Below, piece after piece: positions 5,222 through 13,463 of a stretch of DNA of 64,000 bases. The DNA comes from Cytophagaceae bacterium. GTDB taxonomy: Bacteria > Bacteroidota > Bacteroidia > Cytophagales > Spirosomataceae. Below the pieces are notes generated by a model, which saw only the letters and a program-made list of their open reading frames with translations, did not search any database and was not told the DNA's origin. Within the stretch, counting starts at the first letter, position 1. Every line of letters starts with the position of its first letter. The stretch covers positions 62,001-126,000 of the forward strand of contig JAIXWQ010000011.1 in NCBI GenBank assembly GCA_027491195.1. Reading direction: 5' to 3'. The position numbers were made by a program, and so were the translations under genes.

Positions 5222-6256
5222 TTACTTGCTAGCAGCGAATTCTGCCTGAATTTTGTCTAATTCCTCTTTCGAGTTTAAACGATCGGAAATTAAGGTACGG
5301 TATCTAAAAGTGACAGATTCCCCTTTCTTCAACGTTAAATTACGCTCATCCTTCCCATTGCTAAATACTTTGGCCCCTAAAGGATTTACAGCAAACAGAC
5401 CATAACCACGTGCATGCCAATAACTTGGATAAGAAACATTAGCTGGATGGTCAAAAATAGTAACAGAGATAGCATGGTTATCCATCTCCCCGTGCAAATT
5501 CATCCATTTAGCGCGTGTACTCCAAACCGCCTCACCCTTTACTCCTTCTGAACTAAGATAATCCCCTGTTACACCTGTATTATCCATGACAGGTACTTTT
5601 GTCTCCACACCGTGTGCATCCGTAAACACATCGGGCTTATTCGACGGAATTTCTAATTGACGAGCTACTCGTATGGCAAACATACCGTCTTTCACGTCTT
5701 TGAATAAAACCTGATCAGCTACCGCGGTTAAAGTGGTGATGCGATCTACTGTTCTAGAGTCAGCCGTACCTGAAAAAACATAGGTCGTCTTTTCGGCTAA
5801 CACCTTTTGACCTTTTCCATCATTATCAATCCAATCGGCAGCCACTTCTAACAAACCTTTCTTTGCATCTTGCTTAACAATTGACGTATGTACAATCGTA
5901 CCCATCTTGTGGTTTTGCAATGAAGCGATGATGTTAGTCGAATTATTCCAATAATCAAATCCATTCACATCTTCATAATTCAACCACATGCCCACATGGT
6001 GTGGATGATCAATGCGTTCTCCAGCTCTAGGAGCCATCGGATAACCACGCGTAATGGTAGTTCCTTTTGCAGAGATTAAAGGAAACAAAACAGCTTTTTT
6101 AAGAACACCTTGCCCTGGAAAGAAATAAGACGTAAATGGTTTACCACCTACCTCTACGTCCACTGATGTCTTAGAAAATTTAAACGTAACTGGAAGATTT
6201 TGTGCAAAAGACGTAAATCCCACCAGTCCTAAACAGAAGCAAATTATTTTTTTCAT
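5222..6256 (-). CDS. DUF6807 family secreted protein (database name 'PmoA')
   Basis: This is a 344-residue exported protein beginning with a signal peptide (MKKIICFCLGLVGFTSFAQ). The body matches what I know of the family labelled 'methane oxygenase PmoA' (now DUF6807), a beta-rich, galactose-mutarotase-like fold found next to sugar-use genes in Bacteroidota and Planctomycetes. Recognisable segments are PGQGVLKKAVLFPLISAKGT, DHPHHVGMWLNYEDVNGFDYW and YPSYWHARGYGLFAVNPLG, the last two rich in His, Trp and Asp that could bind a ligand or metal. It has no relation to membrane methane monooxygenase. It is the last gene after susC and susD, separated from susD by a hairpin, which suggests attenuated co-expression and a role on the glycan or small molecule taken up. 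The true activity is unknown. Confidence 0.75.
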   Translation of the reverse strand: MKKIICFCLGLVGFTSFAQNLPVTFKFSKTSVDVEVGGKPFTSYFFPGQGVLKKAVLFPLISAKGTTITRGYPMAPRAGERIDHPHHVGMWLNYEDVNGFDYWNNSTNIIASLQNHKMGTIVHTSIVKQDAKKGLLEVAADWIDNDGKGQKVLAEKTTYVFSGTADSRTVDRITTLTAVADQVLFKDVKDGMFAIRVARQLEIPSNKPDVFTDAHGVETKVPVMDNTGVTGDYLSSEGVKGEAVWSTRAKWMNLHGEMDNHAISVTIFDHPANVSYPSYWHARGYGLFAVNPLGAKVFSNGKDERNLTLKKGESVTFRYRTLISDRLNSKEELDKIQAEFAASK

Positions 6257-6325: not shown

Positions 6326-7993
6326 TTAGTAACCTGAGTTTTGAGGGAAACCACCATTCTCAGATAAATCCACTTGCTTTTGTGGAATTGGACGAACATA
6401 GTGAATATCTCTCACACCTACAGCGGCATCTGTGTTATATAACTTAACACGCTCTACTAAGTTGTTCCAACGCTTCAAGTCCATCCAACGTGTTTGCTCA
6501 CCCGCAAGCTCACGCGCACGCTCTTCCATGATTAAGTTCATATCAACTGAAGTAACTTTCATCGCCTCTTCTTTACCTTTAGCAGCAGCACGTACACGAA
6601 CCTTGTTGATCGCATCAACAGCCTCAGCTTGCTTACCTAACTTGAATTGAGCTTCTGCTAACATCAAATAAGTATCTGCTAAACGATGTACGAAGTAATC
6701 ACGAGAACCATTTTCATACGTCATATCCGGACGAAGTGGATCGAAGAACTTCTGTAATGTAGGGAACAAAGCATAGTTATATAAACTAGGAACTAATACT
6801 TGGTATTTCTTAGCAGCACGTTCCGCTAATGGCATTTCGTAACCTGGAATGAAGATAGTAGTATCACCAGCCTTGTAAGTTACAGTTGCCTTAGAAATAT
6901 CAAATGCTGTATTATACGTTCCTGGTTTGTTAGATAACCAAGTATCCTTAAACGTCTTCTTGTAACGTGTATCATTCACGCGATCAGCAAATACCGTATT
7001 TAACAAGTACGGTGTAGGCTTCAAACGCTTAAATGGACGACCATTTACAACGTCACGTTGCATACCAGCTTGTGTATCATATTGCATACCAAAGTATAAG
7101 TGAAGTTTGTTACCCTGGTTATCCACAAATCCATTCGTTAAAGGATCAGATGTATATTGAACAGCGAAAATAACTTCATTATTCACTTGATTTGCTTGAT
7201 CAAAAACGGAAGCAAAATCAGGTAATAAGGCGAAACCATAGTTTGCAATAACCGTATTACATAATGTAGCCGCATTTGCATAATCGGTAGCTTCAGCAAA
7301 CTTAGAAGACGCACGTGTTAAATACACCTTAGCTAACAAGTTCTCAGCAGCTGGCTTAGTCGCACGACCATAATCCCCAGCAGCCTTAACTGCAGGTAAA
7401 ACTGCTATAGCTTCTTTTAAATCAGTTTCAATCTGCTTGTAAACTGCTTGCTCAGAAACACGAGTAGCTGCTTTAGTCGGACCTGTTGTTTCTTTTAAAC
7501 GTAAGTCTAAAGGTCCAAACTGTTGTACTAAAATGAAATAATAATGAGCACGTAAGTACTTCATCTCAGCTACGCGAGTAGCCTTTACTGCATCTGTGAT
7601 ACCAGTTACTGCGGGAGCACGATCAATAACCGCATTGATAGTATTGATACCTTTATATGTCTCATCCCATAATTCTGCCAAAATTGATACAGAAGAAGTT
7701 AGTTGAGAATCATAAAAGTGGAAACCTTTGAATGAACCATCGGCACCTGCACTATAAATATCCGTACCATATTCTGACATCGTTAATCCACGCTCTGTCG
7801 CATAGAAAGAACGAAGTGGCGTATAAGCAGCATTCGTAGCAGCCACGAATCCAGGAGTCGTAGCGATGTAATCATTACTGATGGAAGAAACGACTGTCTC
7901 TTTCAGTAGATCACTACATGAGGCAGTACCCAACATAATCGCTGAAGCAATACCTACTATTTTTAATGAATTTTTGATATATAAACTTTTCAT
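6326..7993 (-). CDS. RagB/SusD family nutrient-binding outer membrane lipoprotein
   Basis: SusD-type lipoproteins sit on the outer face of the outer membrane as a lid over a SusC-type channel and capture a glycan or peptide ligand. The 555-residue protein has a lipoprotein signal with lipobox LGTASC (Cys26), a TPR-rich helical N-terminal half (for example KYLRAHYYFILVQQFGPLDL), and the typical SusD C-terminus with DTYLMLAEAQFKLG, DAINKVRVRA, IMEERARELAGEQ and RWMDLKRW. It begins 11 bases after susC, the usual paired arrangement. The ligand cannot be read from sequence; the downstream DUF6807 gene hints at a carbohydrate or derivative. Confidence 0.95.
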   Translation of the reverse strand: MKSLYIKNSLKIVGIASAIMLGTASCSDLLKETVVSSISNDYIATTPGFVAATNAAYTPLRSFYATERGLTMSEYGTDIYSAGADGSFKGFHFYDSQLTSSVSILAELWDETYKGINTINAVIDRAPAVTGITDAVKATRVAEMKYLRAHYYFILVQQFGPLDLRLKETTGPTKAATRVSEQAVYKQIETDLKEAIAVLPAVKAAGDYGRATKPAAENLLAKVYLTRASSKFAEATDYANAATLCNTVIANYGFALLPDFASVFDQANQVNNEVIFAVQYTSDPLTNGFVDNQGNKLHLYFGMQYDTQAGMQRDVVNGRPFKRLKPTPYLLNTVFADRVNDTRYKKTFKDTWLSNKPGTYNTAFDISKATVTYKAGDTTIFIPGYEMPLAERAAKKYQVLVPSLYNYALFPTLQKFFDPLRPDMTYENGSRDYFVHRLADTYLMLAEAQFKLGKQAEAVDAINKVRVRAAAKGKEEAMKVTSVDMNLIMEERARELAGEQTRWMDLKRWNNLVERVKLYNTDAAVGVRDIHYVRPIPQKQVDLSENGGFPQNSGY

Positions 7994-8004
7994 TATTTCA
8001 GGGA

Positions 8005-11000
8005 TTAAAATTTAATATTTAAACCAAACGTTGAAACAGATGTAGCCGGAGTTACGTTGTTTTCTACGTTACCATTCGATGTTTCTGGATCCACACCATT
8101 TTCTTTAGAACGGTAGTTCGAGAAGATGAATGGTTGTTGAATACTTGCAAATAGACGCAAGGAAGCAAGACCTAATTTAGCAGCAGTTTTTGCTGGGAAA
8201 TTATAACCAAAGTTGATGTTACGAACTTTGATGAAAGATCCATCATAGTACATAATCGCTGTGTTATAAGCTGGGAACTCTTGGTTAAAATTAGGACGAG
8301 GATAACGAGCACCTGGATTGTTAGGAGTCCAGTAATCTACCTTGATTTGATTGTAACGACCTTGTAAGTAGTTCGAGTTTTGGTGGAACTTAGATACAAT
8401 CATCTGACCTTGACGTGTAAAGATGAAGAATGACAAATCGAATCCTTTGTATGAGAAACGGTTTGTGATACCACCTGTCCAAGCTGGAACATCAGATCCT
8501 AATAACACACGGTCATCAGCAGTAATCTTACCATCATTGTTCGCATCCTTCACTTTGATTTGACCCACTGTAAAGCCCATTGCTTTTGCCTTGTCAGCCT
8601 CAGCAGTTTGCCAGATACCAGCATACTCATAATCAAAGTAAGAGTTCAACGGTTTACCAATGAACCAACGGTTACCTACGTCATCTTTCTTACCATTGTA
8701 AAGAGAAACGATTTCTTCTGTATTCTTGTAGAATACGAAGTCAGTGCTCCATTTAAATCCATTCGCTGCATCGATGTTATTCGTTGTTAACGAAAGTTCA
8801 ATACCGCGGTTCATCGTCTCTCCTACGTTACGCGTAACTGCAGCGAAACCTGTTGAAGTAGGTAATTGATCTGATAATAATAAATCCGTTGTATTTGTTT
8901 GGTAATATTCTGCAGAACCTGAAACGCGACCTCTCCATACAGAGAAATCAACACCCACGTTTTGAGAAGTAGAAGTTTCCCACTTTAAATCCGCATTACC
9001 AATCGTGTTAGGACGGTAACCATAAGCTGCTGTGTTATTCCAAGCATAGGAAGTACGACCTTCCAGACCTACAGTTTGGTAAGGAGAAAGACCTTGATTA
9101 CCAACTTGTGCATAAGAAGCACGAACTTTTAATTCATCTAACCAAGTCAAATCTTTCATGAAGTTCTCTTGGTGAACATTCCAACCCAAGGCTACACCTG
9201 GGAAATTACCCCACTTCGTATTCGCACCGAAACGAGATGAACCATCACGACGAGCAGTCACTGTCAATAAATACTTTCCTTTATAGTCATAATTAATACG
9301 AGCCATATATGAAGCAATCGTCCATTGAATTAAGTTAGATCCTACTCCCTGAATAGAAGAAGCATTACCCACATTGTAGAATTGTTGAGACTCCACCGGA
9401 ACACCTAATACATTTTGAGTAAACTGTTCAAAATTATCACGTTGCATAGACTGCAACAAAGTCACACCTAAATTATGATCTTTAAACTGCTTATTATACG
9501 TTAAGATATTTTCGATCGTATAATTGAAACCCTGACGATTATCTGTGTAAGCGGTTGGATTACCACCCTTAATTGCGTTCGTTAAAGCTCCGTCAAAACG
9601 ACCATTACGCGAGATGGTAAAATCAGGACCAAAGTTCACACGGTATTTCAAACCTTTAGCTAATTGTAATTCAGCATAAATACTGTTGAAAATACGGTAT
9701 TTCTTTGTCTCATCTACTTTAGCACCTGGTACAATCTCATTTAATGGGTTCGTTAATAACGCATCATCCGTCTGCGTAAAGATTAAGTTACCAGAGTCAT
9801 CATGTGATCTCGCTAATGGATTTTGAGATAATAAGAAACCATATGGGTTTAAGTTAGCTCCATTCGTTACAGAATACATTAAATAAGAAGAGGCTCCTAC
9901 TTTTAAGGCTTTATTCACTTGGTGATCTACACTTGTACGCACTGAATAACGAGTAAAATCAAGACCTTGAATAATACCATTATCTTGGAAATAACCCGCA
10001 TTGATTGAGAATTGAGTTTTCTCATTTCCACCTTGAACACCAATAGCATGGTTTTGCTGCATACCTTTTCTTACCATCATATCTTGGTAATCCGTTGTAC
10101 GACCTTTAGCAATACCATCTAATTCCACCGCGATAAATAACTTAGAATCTGCAAAAGCATCAATAACTCCGGTAGGTACTAAATTTCCATTCGCATCTTT
10201 GTAAGTACCAATCGTACGACGTGACTCACGCTTCATTTCAGCATACTCAGCACCAGTAAATAAGTTAATCTTATCTAATGATTGAGTAGATCCGATGTAT
10301 GAATCATAAGAAATAACTGTCTTACCATCTTTACCTCCACGCTTCGTTGTAATTAAAACAACACCATTCGCACCACGAGCACCGTAGATAGCAGTTGCTG
10401 TTGCATCTTTTAAGATTTCCATCGAAGCCACATCATTCGGGTTCATATCTTCATAACCACCAGAAAGAGGAATACCATCTACTACGTATAATGGATCGTT
10501 ACCTGCGTTAAATGAACGACGACCACGAATTAAAACACGTGGAACTGTACCCGGTTTAGAACCTGATTGCGAAACGTCCACACCCGCCACACGACCTTGC
10601 ATCGCTTGACCTAAGTTGGTAATAGGCATTTCAGTAATTTGTTTAGCAGTAACGGAAGAAATAGCTCCTGTTAATTGACTTTTCTTTTGAGTACCATAAC
10701 CTACCACAACAACTTCTTGTAAAGATTTAGTATCAGCACTAAGAGACACATTGATTTGCGTCTTAGACCCTACTGAAACTTCTTGTGAATTAGTACCTAC
10801 TGCTGAAAAAACTAAAACAGCAGAGTTACCTACAGTAATTTTGTAATTTCCGTCCATGTCTGTTGAAGTACCTTTAGAAGTACCTTTAACAGCAACACTA
10901 GCTCCTGGAATACCAGAACCATCGTCAGATGACGTCACTTTACCTGAGACCGTCCGATCTTGGGCAAAAATTTGAATACTCAATAACAGCATTATACCGC

Positions 11001-11034
11001 TAAGGAGCACCTTGGAAAGTAATTTTTTTCTCAT
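8005..11034 (-). CDS. SusC/RagA family TonB-linked outer membrane transporter
   Basis: This 1009-residue TonB-dependent outer membrane transporter imports the ligand captured by its SusD partner. A signal peptide (about residues 1-25, ending IQIFAQ) is followed by a carboxypeptidase-regulatory-like beta-sandwich (RTVSGKVTSSDDG.GIPGASV), the SusC linker VVVGYGTQKKSQLTGAI, a plug domain with PLYVVDGIPLSGG and the signature AIYGARGANGVVLITTKRG, then a 22-strand barrel ending LNIKF. There is no N-terminal STN signalling domain, so it is probably not a transducing receptor for the adjacent ECF sigma factor. Its leader is long, over 200 bases. Confidence 0.96.
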   Translation of the reverse strand: MRKKLLSKVLLSGIMLLLSIQIFAQDRTVSGKVTSSDDGSGIPGASVAVKGTSKGTSTDMDGNYKITVGNSAVLVFSAVGTNSQEVSVGSKTQINVSLSADTKSLQEVVVVGYGTQKKSQLTGAISSVTAKQITEMPITNLGQAMQGRVAGVDVSQSGSKPGTVPRVLIRGRRSFNAGNDPLYVVDGIPLSGGYEDMNPNDVASMEILKDATATAIYGARGANGVVLITTKRGGKDGKTVISYDSYIGSTQSLDKINLFTGAEYAEMKRESRRTIGTYKDANGNLVPTGVIDAFADSKLFIAVELDGIAKGRTTDYQDMMVRKGMQQNHAIGVQGGNEKTQFSINAGYFQDNGIIQGLDFTRYSVRTSVDHQVNKALKVGASSYLMYSVTNGANLNPYGFLLSQNPLARSHDDSGNLIFTQTDDALLTNPLNEIVPGAKVDETKKYRIFNSIYAELQLAKGLKYRVNFGPDFTISRNGRFDGALTNAIKGGNPTAYTDNRQGFNYTIENILTYNKQFKDHNLGVTLLQSMQRDNFEQFTQNVLGVPVESQQFYNVGNASSIQGVGSNLIQWTIASYMARINYDYKGKYLLTVTARRDGSSRFGANTKWGNFPGVALGWNVHQENFMKDLTWLDELKVRASYAQVGNQGLSPYQTVGLEGRTSYAWNNTAAYGYRPNTIGNADLKWETSTSQNVGVDFSVWRGRVSGSAEYYQTNTTDLLLSDQLPTSTGFAAVTRNVGETMNRGIELSLTTNNIDAANGFKWSTDFVFYKNTEEIVSLYNGKKDDVGNRWFIGKPLNSYFDYEYAGIWQTAEADKAKAMGFTVGQIKVKDANNDGKITADDRVLLGSDVPAWTGGITNRFSYKGFDLSFFIFTRQGQMIVSKFHQNSNYLQGRYNQIKVDYWTPNNPGARYPRPNFNQEFPAYNTAIMYYDGSFIKVRNINFGYNFPAKTAAKLGLASLRLFASIQQPFIFSNYRSKENGVDPETSNGNVENNVTPATSVSTFGLNIKF

Positions 11035-11235
11035 AGGTTAATTTAATTAAGTTGTTTGCAAAGTCAGTTGGATCCTCTCCCACAAGGCTTTGCATTCTTG
11101 TTGGGATAGTTTTAAAGGTTTAATAGGGTACTTATTTACAGTTTTTAATCTCTTTATCCAGCTCATTCTTTTCGATAACATGTCAATCCTTTAAGATTAC
11201 TTAACACGAAAAGAAGAAAGGTTATAAGTTTTACT

Positions 11236-11268
11236 CAAATATATCTTATAATTATTCAATATTAACAA
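11236..11268 (-). promoter_or_regulatory. Putative promoter of susC-susD-pmoA-like unit
   Basis: On the minus strand TATATTTG (11236-11243) fits the -7 consensus TAnnTTTG, and a TTG at 11266-11268 lies 22 bases upstream as a loose -33 box. It sits at the end of the sigma factor gene and would give a leader of about 200 bases before susC. Confidence 0.35.
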
Positions 11269-11831
11269 GCGTAGGCTTTCGAAGTCATATGTTCTTTCAT
11301 GACCCGAAGTGCTCCAAATATTAAATTATATACTGATTGAGGATTGATATTCATATGTTCCGAGATCTGATCGGTATCCATATTTTCAAAATATTTTAGC
11401 GTAATAGCCTCTTTTTGACGTTTACTTAACTTATTTAGGCTAGAATACATCGTTCTATGTGACATGTGCTCCTCCTCTACCATCACTAATTGTCTTTCAG
11501 CAGAAGGCATATCTTCCATAAACTGGTATTGATAAGCCTCGTGGTGATTCTGATTTTTTAATTGAGATTCTAATTGACGCACAATCTTACGTTTGATGGA
11601 TGCCATTAAATAAAACTTAACACTAGTTGTTGGTCCTAGACTTGAATGATTTTTCCAAATCTCCACGAACAAATCATGTAAACTGTCTTTGATTAAATCC
11701 TTATCACTCGTAATCCCCATACAATAAGTATACAGAGGTTGAACAAAATGAGAATACAAGACAGCAAAAGCTTGTTGATCACCTGATCTAAATTGATCCC
11801 AAACCTCTACTTCATTAATGGACTTCTTCAT
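11262..11831 (-). CDS. RNA polymerase sigma-70 factor, ECF family
   Basis: This is a 189-residue extracytoplasmic-function sigma factor. Region 2 covers roughly residues 25-95 (YTYCMGITSDKDLIKDSLHDLFVEIW, core-binding and -10 recognition, then SIKRKIVRQLE). Region 4 is near 135-185, with LSKRQKEAITLKYF followed by the helix-turn-helix MDTDQISEHMNINPQSVYNLI. It resembles the sigma factors of Bacteroidota that control SusCD loci, but no anti-sigma (FecR-type) gene is adjacent and the SusC lacks an STN domain, so how it is held inactive is not visible. It points toward susC on the same strand with a 227-base gap. No good TAnnTTTG box lies before it. Confidence 0.9.
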   Translation of the reverse strand: MKKSINEVEVWDQFRSGDQQAFAVLYSHFVQPLYTYCMGITSDKDLIKDSLHDLFVEIWKNHSSLGPTTSVKFYLMASIKRKIVRQLESQLKNQNHHEAYQYQFMEDMPSAERQLVMVEEEHMSHRTMYSSLNKLSKRQKEAITLKYFENMDTDQISEHMNINPQSVYNLIFGALRVMKEHMTSKAYAC

Positions 11832-11940
11832 AAAACTGATCTAAAATTGTACAATAGCTATATGTATTATAAATTGACATATACTACTCAGGGAATATAG
11901 ACCATAATTGTATAAAAAATCAAAGAAATTATTTAATTTT

Positions 11941-11967
11941 TTTCCGTAAACGTTTACGGAAACGTTT
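11941..11967. promoter_or_regulatory. Tandem LacI-type palindromic operator upstream of the APC permease
   Basis: Positions 11941-11962 form a perfect 22-base palindrome centred on GTAAACGTTTAC, the classic CG-centred operator shape of LacI/GalR regulators. A second AAACGTTT core follows at 11960-11967, exactly 12 bases from the first core at 11948-11955. The site is about 105 bases upstream of the permease and 110 bases upstream of the divergent sigma factor, so it could control either or both. No LacI-family gene with a LacI-type HTH is in the window. Confidence 0.65.
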
Positions 11968-12071
11968 ACAAACTAAAAAAGTTTAAAAGTGTTCAAGAAA
12001 ATCAGAAATAATAATCGTTTCTTTGGATTCTTGATGAAAATCAGGAATTGCATTAAATCAATAAAACTTAT

Positions 12072-13463
12072 ATGAATAAAAAATTAAACACCCTTGACGC
12101 ATCAATGCTCGTGATGGGTTCGATGATTGGCTCTGGTATCTTTTTAGTTAGTTCAGAGGTAGCACGTTCCGTAGGCTCCCCTATTTATTGGATCGGCACC
12201 TGGCTGTTAACTGCCTTTTTAACCATTACGGGTGCCTATGCCTATGGAAAATTAAGTTCTGTGTTTCCCAAAACAGGTGGACAATATATCTATTTAAAAG
12301 AATCCTATAATCCTTTAACGGGCTTCTTATTTGGCTGGACTACCTTTTTAGTCATTCAAACAGGAACAATCGCAGCTGTTGCTGTAGCCTTTGCCCGCTA
12401 TGCAGGCTTTATTTTTCCGGGTATTTTAAATGATACGCCACTAGTGGGTGATTTCATTACTACTCAGCAAATTTTGGCGGCTTCGCTTATTGCCTTGTTA
12501 ACTTATATCAATAGTAGAGGGGTTCAATTTGCCTCCTTAGTTCAAAATATCTTTACGATTACCAAAATCGGAGCTATCGTTATCCTCATTATCATCGGTT
12601 TATATGTAGGTGTGGCAAATGAATGGATTCATTTTGAAGGGTTTTTCGCAGCACCATTTACAGTAGAAGCTAACACATCACATGCGATAGGCGGTTGGGA
12701 ATTGATTTCGCTCTTCGGTGTAGCGATGATCGGCCCCCTATTCTCTTCTTCTGCTTGGAACAATGTCACCTTTGCGAGTGCTGACTTTGAAGATCCGAAG
12801 AAAACCATCGCAAAAGGATTAGTCTATGGATCGGCTTTAGTTTGTTTACTTTATTTGCTCACAAATATGGCCTATTTAAGTATTATACCTTTAAAAGGAG
12901 AAGCGGACGGAATTAATAGCTATGCCCGTGGAATTATGTTTGCCACACAAGATCGATTAGGAGCTGCGGCATTAGAAACCGTTCTTGGAGGAATAGGTGC
13001 TTTAGTGATGGCGGTGTTTATTATGATTTCCACTTTTGGATGTAATAATGGAATCATTTTAGCGGGTGGTCGTTTATTCCAAGCGATGGCAAATGATCGC
13101 TTGTTTTTCAAGAAAGCAGCAGAAACAAATGATAAAGATGTACCCGTTTATTCACTAGGAATTCAAGGCTTGTGGGCCATCTTATTGTGTTTCTCGGGAT
13201 CCTATGGTGCTTTATTAGACTTTACCGTATTCGCTATTCTGATATTTTACTTCCTAACTGTAGCATCTGTATTCAAAACTAGAATCATGCAGAATGAACT
13301 GCCTCTTTTACAGAAGTTGTTATTTAGCGGATACCTAATTTTGTTAGTGGGAATAGCAGGAAACCTGTTGTGGGTTAAAACACTTTCCTCATCTATCGGA
13401 TTAGGAATCGTACTTTTAGGTATTCCTTTCTACTTTGTGATGAAGAAAACTCAAAGCAATTGA
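12072..13463 (+). CDS. APC family amino acid permease
   Basis: This is a 463-residue inner membrane transporter with about 12 hydrophobic segments, of the amino acid-polyamine-organocation superfamily. The N-terminal TM1 motif LVMGSMIGSGIFLV contains the substrate-backbone-binding GSGIF. Other recognisable stretches are GKLSSVFPKTGGQYIYLKE (TM2 loop), FASADFEDPKKTI (TM6-7 loop) and ILAGGRLFQAMANDRLFFK. It looks like the LAT-type/amino acid exchanger branch; the substrate is not predictable. It is monocistronic and sits behind a LacI-type tandem operator and a small hairpin (12027-12048, GAAA loop) in its leader. The stop overlaps the end of the opposite-strand hydrolase by 13 bases. Confidence 0.88.
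   Translation: MNKKLNTLDASMLVMGSMIGSGIFLVSSEVARSVGSPIYWIGTWLLTAFLTITGAYAYGKLSSVFPKTGGQYIYLKESYNPLTGFLFGWTTFLVIQTGTIAAVAVAFARYAGFIFPGILNDTPLVGDFITTQQILAASLIALLTYINSRGVQFASLVQNIFTITKIGAIVILIIIGLYVGVANEWIHFEGFFAAPFTVEANTSHAIGGWELISLFGVAMIGPLFSSSAWNNVTFASADFEDPKKTIAKGLVYGSALVCLLYLLTNMAYLSIIPLKGEADGINSYARGIMFATQDRLGAAALETVLGGIGALVMAVFIMISTFGCNNGIILAGGRLFQAMANDRLFFKKAAETNDKDVPVYSLGIQGLWAILLCFSGSYGALLDFTVFAILIFYFLTVASVFKTRIMQNELPLLQKLLFSGYLILLVGIAGNLLWVKTLSSSIGLGIVLLGIPFYFVMKKTQSN

Follow-up and report, generated by a model that had tools for sequence, protein, structure and literature searches.

The window, by which we mean the whole 64,000-nucleotide stretch analysed here, lies on contig C11 of its genome and carries a SusCD locus on the minus strand. 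An ECF sigma factor gene (11262-11831) is accompanied on this strand by genes for a SusC/RagA-type TonB-dependent receptor (8005-11034), a SusD-like lipoprotein (6326-7993) and a DUF6807 protein (5222-6256); the sigma factor has Sigma70 region 4 and sigma70-ECF (TIGR02937) scores above cut-off, with region 2 just below. An APC amino-acid permease gene (12072-13463) is transcribed divergently from the plus strand. Between the ECF and permease genes lies TTTCCGTAAACGTTTACGGAAA, a perfect 22-bp palindrome (11941-11962). Its core, GTAAACGTTTAC (11946-11957), is the ECF-proximal member of a pair of 12-bp units. The ECF-distal member, GGAAACGTTTAC (11958-11969), is centred exactly 12 bp away, and this second, AAACGTTT-type unit overlaps the 22-bp palindrome. 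Direct sequence and gene coordinates therefore bear out the initial annotation, which had described a perfect 22-base palindrome with a second core 12 bases away and had placed it between a divergent ECF sigma/SusCD locus and a permease.

Among 1303 LacI-family regulators, 1251 have even palindromes as operators and 1173 a consensus CG centre (PMC4052901). The twin site likewise consists of even palindromes with a central CG, but differs in that two abutting units stand exactly 12 bp apart and the candidate regulator gene is unlinked. Matches to GTAAACGTTTAC with at most one mismatch occur twice in the window, against a shuffle expectation of 0.19 (two of 100 shuffles reach two). A scan of the 2.49-Mb genome for the palindrome, proposed in the initial annotation, found the tandem at one place and the exact 12-mer likewise at one place. 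A wider regulon of single sites in this genome found little support: of four one-mismatch places beyond the twin site, only one is clear of any ORF (G000:C10:230444). The palindrome at that place, TGTAAACGATTACA (G000:C10:230444-230455; L006 1501-1512), is a single intergenic copy ~113 bp before a SusC-like gene and may be a further LacI target.

With at most two mismatches allowed in 20 bases, the tandem is present in 33 of 37 Aquirufa genomes, that of the window included, and the four without a match are 62-81% complete; at the same limit it was found in none of 22 genomes from other families of the order. Because of this conservation across Aquirufa, the site is far beyond chance, and the absence from relatives that would have spoken against it, according to the initial annotation, was not observed. 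The degenerate pattern was matched exactly by 13 of 390 genomes across the order: eight of Aquirufa, four more from its family and one, G233, from another family, which has the pattern flanked by a LacI gene and a SusC-like gene. Most of the loci that we read from Arcicella, Pseudarcicella and the genus g37 have the identical 24-mer GTAAACGTTTACGGAAACGTTTAC as their twin site. As expected of a LacI-family operator, the site is conserved before orthologous genes.

Base-level conservation was measured over 43 loci, all chosen for having the site: 29 hand-picked from the 33 site-bearing Aquirufa and 14 from other genera. In this selected set, mean information was 1.84 bits per base over the 24-bp operator, 1.80 over a GGAAA flank, 1.80 over a TTG and 1.58 over a -7 region, and 0.48 over 100 bp of the divergent side. 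Pairwise identity among ten representatives was 0.95 in the operator and 0.32-0.40 on the divergent side, the background being 0.32. The most variable bases in the window's family of sites are those where the two units meet. Matches inside coding regions in G030:C15 (two mismatches) and G448:C36 (one mismatch), and a two-mismatch match elsewhere in G266, are taken as chance or unexplained. Comparison thus confirms the twin palindrome as a real, strongly conserved, predicted pair of DNA-binding sites, most likely a putative operator for a Lac-repressor-family regulator encoded elsewhere in the genome.

The conserved sequence continues from the operator towards the ECF gene on the minus strand. 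A GGAAA and A/T-rich tract (11924-11945) leads to a TTG (11921-11923) resembling a -33 box of the ECF promoter; the operator-to-TTG gap is 22 bp in 39 of the 43 loci, and at this offset the others have TTT (two), TGG (one) or GTG (one). Beyond it, TATATT (11894-11899) resembles a -7 box. Counted from the operator, TATAT first appears at +46 in 24 loci, at +44 in 13 and at +40 in five, and is absent in one; the five loci with TATAT at +40 have a second at +46. The distance from the operator to the ECF start codon is variable (93-151 bp). Primary-sigma promoters of Bacteroidetes have TTTG near -33 and TAnnTTTG at -7, and in Flavobacterium johnsoniae the -33 motif was not found (PMC7366714). On sequence grounds, the boxes at the ECF gene read as a promoter of this primary-sigma type, and the whole operator would then be upstream of -33. 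On the permease strand, a TTTCTTTG/CAACTTTG box of the pattern [TC][AT]NNTTTG is found at a fixed distance of 48 bp from the site in 13 of the 29 Aquirufa loci and is not general. An ATTGTAC / ATTGTATTAAAT-like motif (window 11846-11855) recurs near both start codons, upstream of both divergent genes, in several Aquirufa.

Only in Aquirufa and Sandaracinomonas was the permease seen next to the site. Among the loci that we read in Arcicella, Pseudarcicella and g37, the site precedes an ECF orthologue (52-56% identical) and then SusC where the contig extends, and the divergent gene, where visible, is not a permease; it encodes one ~1020-aa amidohydrolase-like protein (L122, L158, L161, L172, L177, L255-L257, L375, L376, L378 and L379; the domains were tested on L122 alone). 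Across these genera the divergent gene switches between permease and amidohydrolase-like, whereas the site remains together with ECF and SusC. By this comparison it is tied to the ECF/SusCD promoter and appears to control the ECF gene, its predicted main target, rather than mainly the permease, which may be a lineage-specific second target. Of the initial reading, the LacI-type operator under an unlinked LacI regulator is supported by comparison, with a candidate, LacI_A, described below; its emphasis on the permease is not, since site and spacing alike go with the ECF/SusCD promoter.

As in the ECF/anti-sigma control of SusCD loci in Bacteroides, the ECF gene adjoins SusCD; the difference is that here a LacI-type operator precedes it. 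Unlike in classical ECF/FecR/SusC signalling, no full-length FecR anti-sigma gene stands between ECF and susC in the window. The only ORF in this gap, of 44 aa (11047-11181, minus strand), is a possible, weakly matching FecR-like remnant whose alignment is limited to the C-terminal LS..E..ALW.RI..TLQ portion of longer ORFs found in Arcicella-type loci. The latter, 88-113 aa long and also located between ECF and susC, are alignable to FecR N-termini with BLAST E values down to 3e-10 against only two sequences; the two that were tested gave no Pfam match above cut-off. In Aquirufa, the corresponding ORF spans 44-83 aa by loose starts and has a weak FecR match (best E 0.016 over 16 residues). A small ORF between ECF and SusC was noted in L122, L155, L158, L177 and L206. 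If the Aquirufa ORF is a FecR remnant, control of the ECF gene at the level of transcription would gain importance.

ECF homologues from the wider family (46-51% identical) were rejected as orthologues. In none of 20 regions read, of more than 80 listed, did we find SusCD immediately next to the ECF gene or a twin site in front of it; one region (L365) has a SusC-like gene ~3 kb away, and neighbours were read from their sequence starts as amidohydrolase/deaminase and RarA-type. On these grounds, the homologues are treated as a paralogous group. A second twin site was seen in an Aquirufa subgroup before the SusC gene of a different locus, read from sequence starts as sulfatase-like/lyase-like (L086-L090, from G010, G036, G013, G032 and G025). 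G001, G004 and G029 share this gene order and have the site, with two mismatches, in the corresponding gap.

Two genes with a LacI helix-turn-helix, LacI_A and LacI_B, were found in the genome of the window. They lie on contigs C5 and C6, in line with the initial remark that no LacI regulator is nearby. LacI_A (G000:C5:68838-69857; 340 aa) is encoded between genes read as gyrA and folB. It scores 56.6 bits against PF00356, well above the cut-off of 27, as a LacI-family regulator should, and its ligand domain is LacI-like: residues 4-316 match CcpA and residues 6-334 match PurR chains. It does not classify as CcpA itself, its NCBIfam TIGR01481 score being 216.2 against a cut-off of 442.35. Judging from its distribution among genomes, LacI_A is probably the regulator at the twin site.

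LacI_A orthologues of at least 59% identity were found in 34 of 160 family genomes, in a search whose scoring covered, for many genomes, just a part of the first-look candidates. The matches that follow in the list reach at most 56% identity, and those placed in a tree fall in other branches. For 105 of the 160 genomes the site was examined as well, with mismatch limits of 2, 0 and 2 across three scans. All 34 genomes with the orthologue have the site: 31 within the scan patterns, G447 and G433 with one mismatch, and G448 with two, the last at its ECF gene. Among the 71 others examined, three have the site. In G454, LacI_A is split in two frames (L384/L389, G454:C29:39352-40367), 96-98% identical to the protein of G408, through a frameshift or an assembly error; G453 has a partial LacI_A gene; and in G465 (86% complete) the search found no LacI_A. 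The 76 family genomes common to the exact-pattern and orthologue searches comprise 12 with both, 64 with neither and none mixed. Outside the 160-genome set, G021, G023 and G034 have neither; G014 (80% complete Aquirufa) has the site and no LacI gene that could be found, and G003 (71% complete Aquirufa), whose permease starts at a contig edge, has LacI_A and no site that could be found. The exceptions to the pairing (G003, G014 and G465) are all incomplete assemblies. As the co-occurrence is confined to one clade, shared ancestry alone could produce it.

In G010 (98% complete), the single PF00356 gene, which is also the single match to the LacI_A query, is an 82% LacI_A orthologue. G007 (one contig, 96%) and G019 (99%) have one PF00356 match each, plus a second, weaker match to the query. 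In G433, a LacI_A relative (58.5%) is divergent from an ECF gene with the twin site GTAAACGTTCACGGTAACGTTTAC between them; this ECF factor is a paralogue, 36-37% identical to that of the window. The LacI tree, from which 4 of 44 planned rows were dropped by an ORF filter, places the G433 protein beside LacI_A with 91/90 support, on a long branch. Autoregulation of LacI_A was considered and rejected, as no such site lies upstream of its gene in any of the ten loci examined.

Residues 15-16 of LacI-family proteins set half-site bases 4-5 (PMC2978694). The recognition helix reads S[VI]AT[VI]SRA in all 27 LacI_A-clade proteins read. LacI_B (382 aa; L010 1348-2496, G000:C6) has an N-terminal IS1/IS1595-type zinc ribbon and lies beside its own SusCD locus, with a twin, GGAATCGCTTCC-GGAAAGGCTTCC, between LacI_B and its SusC (L085 8354-8377); the second unit of this twin is centred on GG, not CG. 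LacI_B and the 50-56% paralogues in the tree have the helix S.ST, and twin sites before S.ST genes, where found, are of GCAA..TTGC, GGAA..TTCC or GTTTCCGGAAAC types. This pairing of helix (S.A versus S.ST) with operator sequence agrees with the role of residues 15-16 in PMC2978694. A scan of public genomes with the degenerate tandem gave a LacI gene within 500 bp in 30 of 117 loci among the matches listed, compared with 7.4% for random positions in those listed loci, and the LacI proteins so placed in other bacteria have the helix VS.A in 28 of 30 cases. Sites of this type therefore adjoin LacI genes elsewhere, as LacI-family operators do.

The 12-bp spacing is found before other LacI genes as well. 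We examined 60 other LacI upstream regions (L390-L449, from Spirosomaceae and other families of the order), hand-picked from protein matches, not motifs, and including many orthologues. Unexpectedly, 21 of them hold CG-centred palindromes exactly 12 bp apart, against 0.05 in dinucleotide shuffles, and the 60 regions include 16 distinct motif pairs at this distance, with several operator sequences. In 24 of the 60, a CG-centred 12-bp palindrome has a similar partner at a distance of 8-40 bp; by distance, 12 bp is represented by 21 regions, 24 bp by five, 27 bp by one, 30 bp by two and 13 bp by none. Three units stand in a row in L391, L392 and L400. For 15 of the 60, three of the 21 among them, the script read no LacI recognition helix, although the places come from protein matches. 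A separate set of 26 LacI upstreams, obtained after ORF, motif and duplicate filters and including three regions fetched for the tandem pattern (L246, L159 and L182), has the 12-bp tandem in seven, a spacing of 19 in one and of 31 in one. Related regulators thus often seem to share the exact 12-base spacing.

Overlapping LacI-family sites in 110 operons were reported to peak at ~13 bp, which the authors found hard to reconcile with known structures (PMC4052901). At E. coli gntKU, by our own measurement, two GntR-like palindromes stand 13 bp apart. Like such gntKU-type overlaps (PMC4052901), the twin site brings two palindromes so near each other that both would not readily be occupied at the same time, but its spacing is 12 bp, not 13. 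At 12 bp, six-base half-sites just abut, and two dimers on nearby faces, as the initial annotation envisaged, would be structurally awkward. A bolder idea, which we advance tentatively, is that LacI regulators of Bacteroidota use a 12-bp-tiled composite operator of two, sometimes three, CG-centred units, with a binding mode beyond the solved LacI-DNA complexes (either neighbouring dimers whose head-pieces abut, or registers that exclude each other). LacI_A might thereby activate an ECF gene whose anti-sigma partner is mostly lost, a cytoplasmic sugar sensor replacing the outer-membrane signal.

By comparison of genomes, the site is present and conserved, its distance to the ECF boxes is fixed, LacI_A co-occurs with it, and in one genome a LacI_A relative adjoins such a site. 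A likely interpretation is that the twin site is bound by the unlinked LacI_A acting as an effector-controlled activator of the ECF gene, so that a metabolite would set the ECF level and the ECF factor would drive the SusCD operon. LacI_A (G000:C5:68838-69857) would bind the twin operator just upstream of the primary-sigma-type ECF promoter under the control of a cytoplasmic metabolite as effector, and, from a position read from the boxes as roughly -60 to -80, would activate the ECF gene; the ECF factor would then drive the susCD nutrient-uptake operon. CcpA likewise activates from cre sites upstream of -35 at ackA, pta and ilvB, and in B. subtilis a cre box in that position generally marks a CcpA-activated gene, the lev operon being an exception (PMC3463425). 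The two cases have in common a LacI-family site upstream of a promoter, and activation is favoured because the operator lies upstream of -33, where CcpA activates (PMC3463425). The main rival to activation is a repressor role for LacI_A, which seems distinctly less probable to us.

Repression is the commoner mode among LacI-family members. It is so for CcpA too (PMC3463425), and LacI_A at the twin site could block the ECF promoter by bending or looping, along with the divergent gene, until an inducer is present. The location between two divergent genes would suit such a repressor, as would the [TC][AT]NNTTTG box of 13 of 29 Aquirufa loci on the permease strand. A second factor might also mediate repression, as it does at the lev operon (PMC3463425). 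Against it, the operator is wholly upstream of the -33-like box at a gap of 22 bp in 39 of 43 loci, the CcpA activation position (PMC3463425), and identity on the divergent side comes close to background when genera are compared. The same permease-side flank counts against the emphasis of the initial annotation, an operator that mainly serves the APC permease and links amino-acid supply to regulation. Permease and site do adjoin in Aquirufa and Sandaracinomonas, but the other genera read have the amidohydrolase-like gene instead while twin site, ECF and SusC remain; on synteny, we reject the permease as main target and regard this idea as improbable.

That another protein binds the site, either LacI_B, the sole other LacI in the genome, or a non-LacI protein recognising CG-centred palindromes, is similarly unlikely. 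LacI_B is disfavoured by having its own twin of different sequence with a GG-centred second unit; G010 has the site together with one LacI gene, the LacI_A orthologue; and the tandem adjoins LacI genes in unrelated bacteria more often than random positions do (30 of 117 loci among the matches listed versus 7.4%). Finally, the conserved palindrome might be an RNA hairpin or terminator instead of a DNA operator, since folding of the plus strand is more favourable than that of shuffled sequence (z -2.41, matched by 4 of 200 shuffles). Any palindromic DNA would yield a strand that folds, however, and no Rfam match with E up to 1 was found in 11000-12200. Moreover, the site is upstream of the predicted ECF promoter, its T run comes before and not after the hairpin, and 12-bp units in tandem are found again in front of LacI genes. 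On the folding control and the Rfam search, we rejected an RNA element, which we consider scarcely credible.

LacI regulators of Bacteroidota have been predicted from motifs before: like LacI_A, the Bacteroides proteins KdgR, UxaR, UxmR and UxuR were so predicted, and they are listed for uronate pathways; the part of that account used here describes no LacI control of an ECF gene (PMC3878776). In the literature on LacI with SusCD/ECF in Bacteroidetes and on tandem LacI operators, no title or abstract covered reports an ECF-SusCD locus under the control of LacI, or a rule of 12-bp spacing; this coverage takes in few subscription journals. The LacI_A reading would give an orphan regulator a candidate target and proposes a LacI-to-ECF-to-SusCD cascade in Spirosomaceae. 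It also turns a recorded puzzle, LacI sites too close for joint binding, into a precise testable case: an exact 12-bp tiling that seems to recur across several LacI subgroups with different operator sequences.
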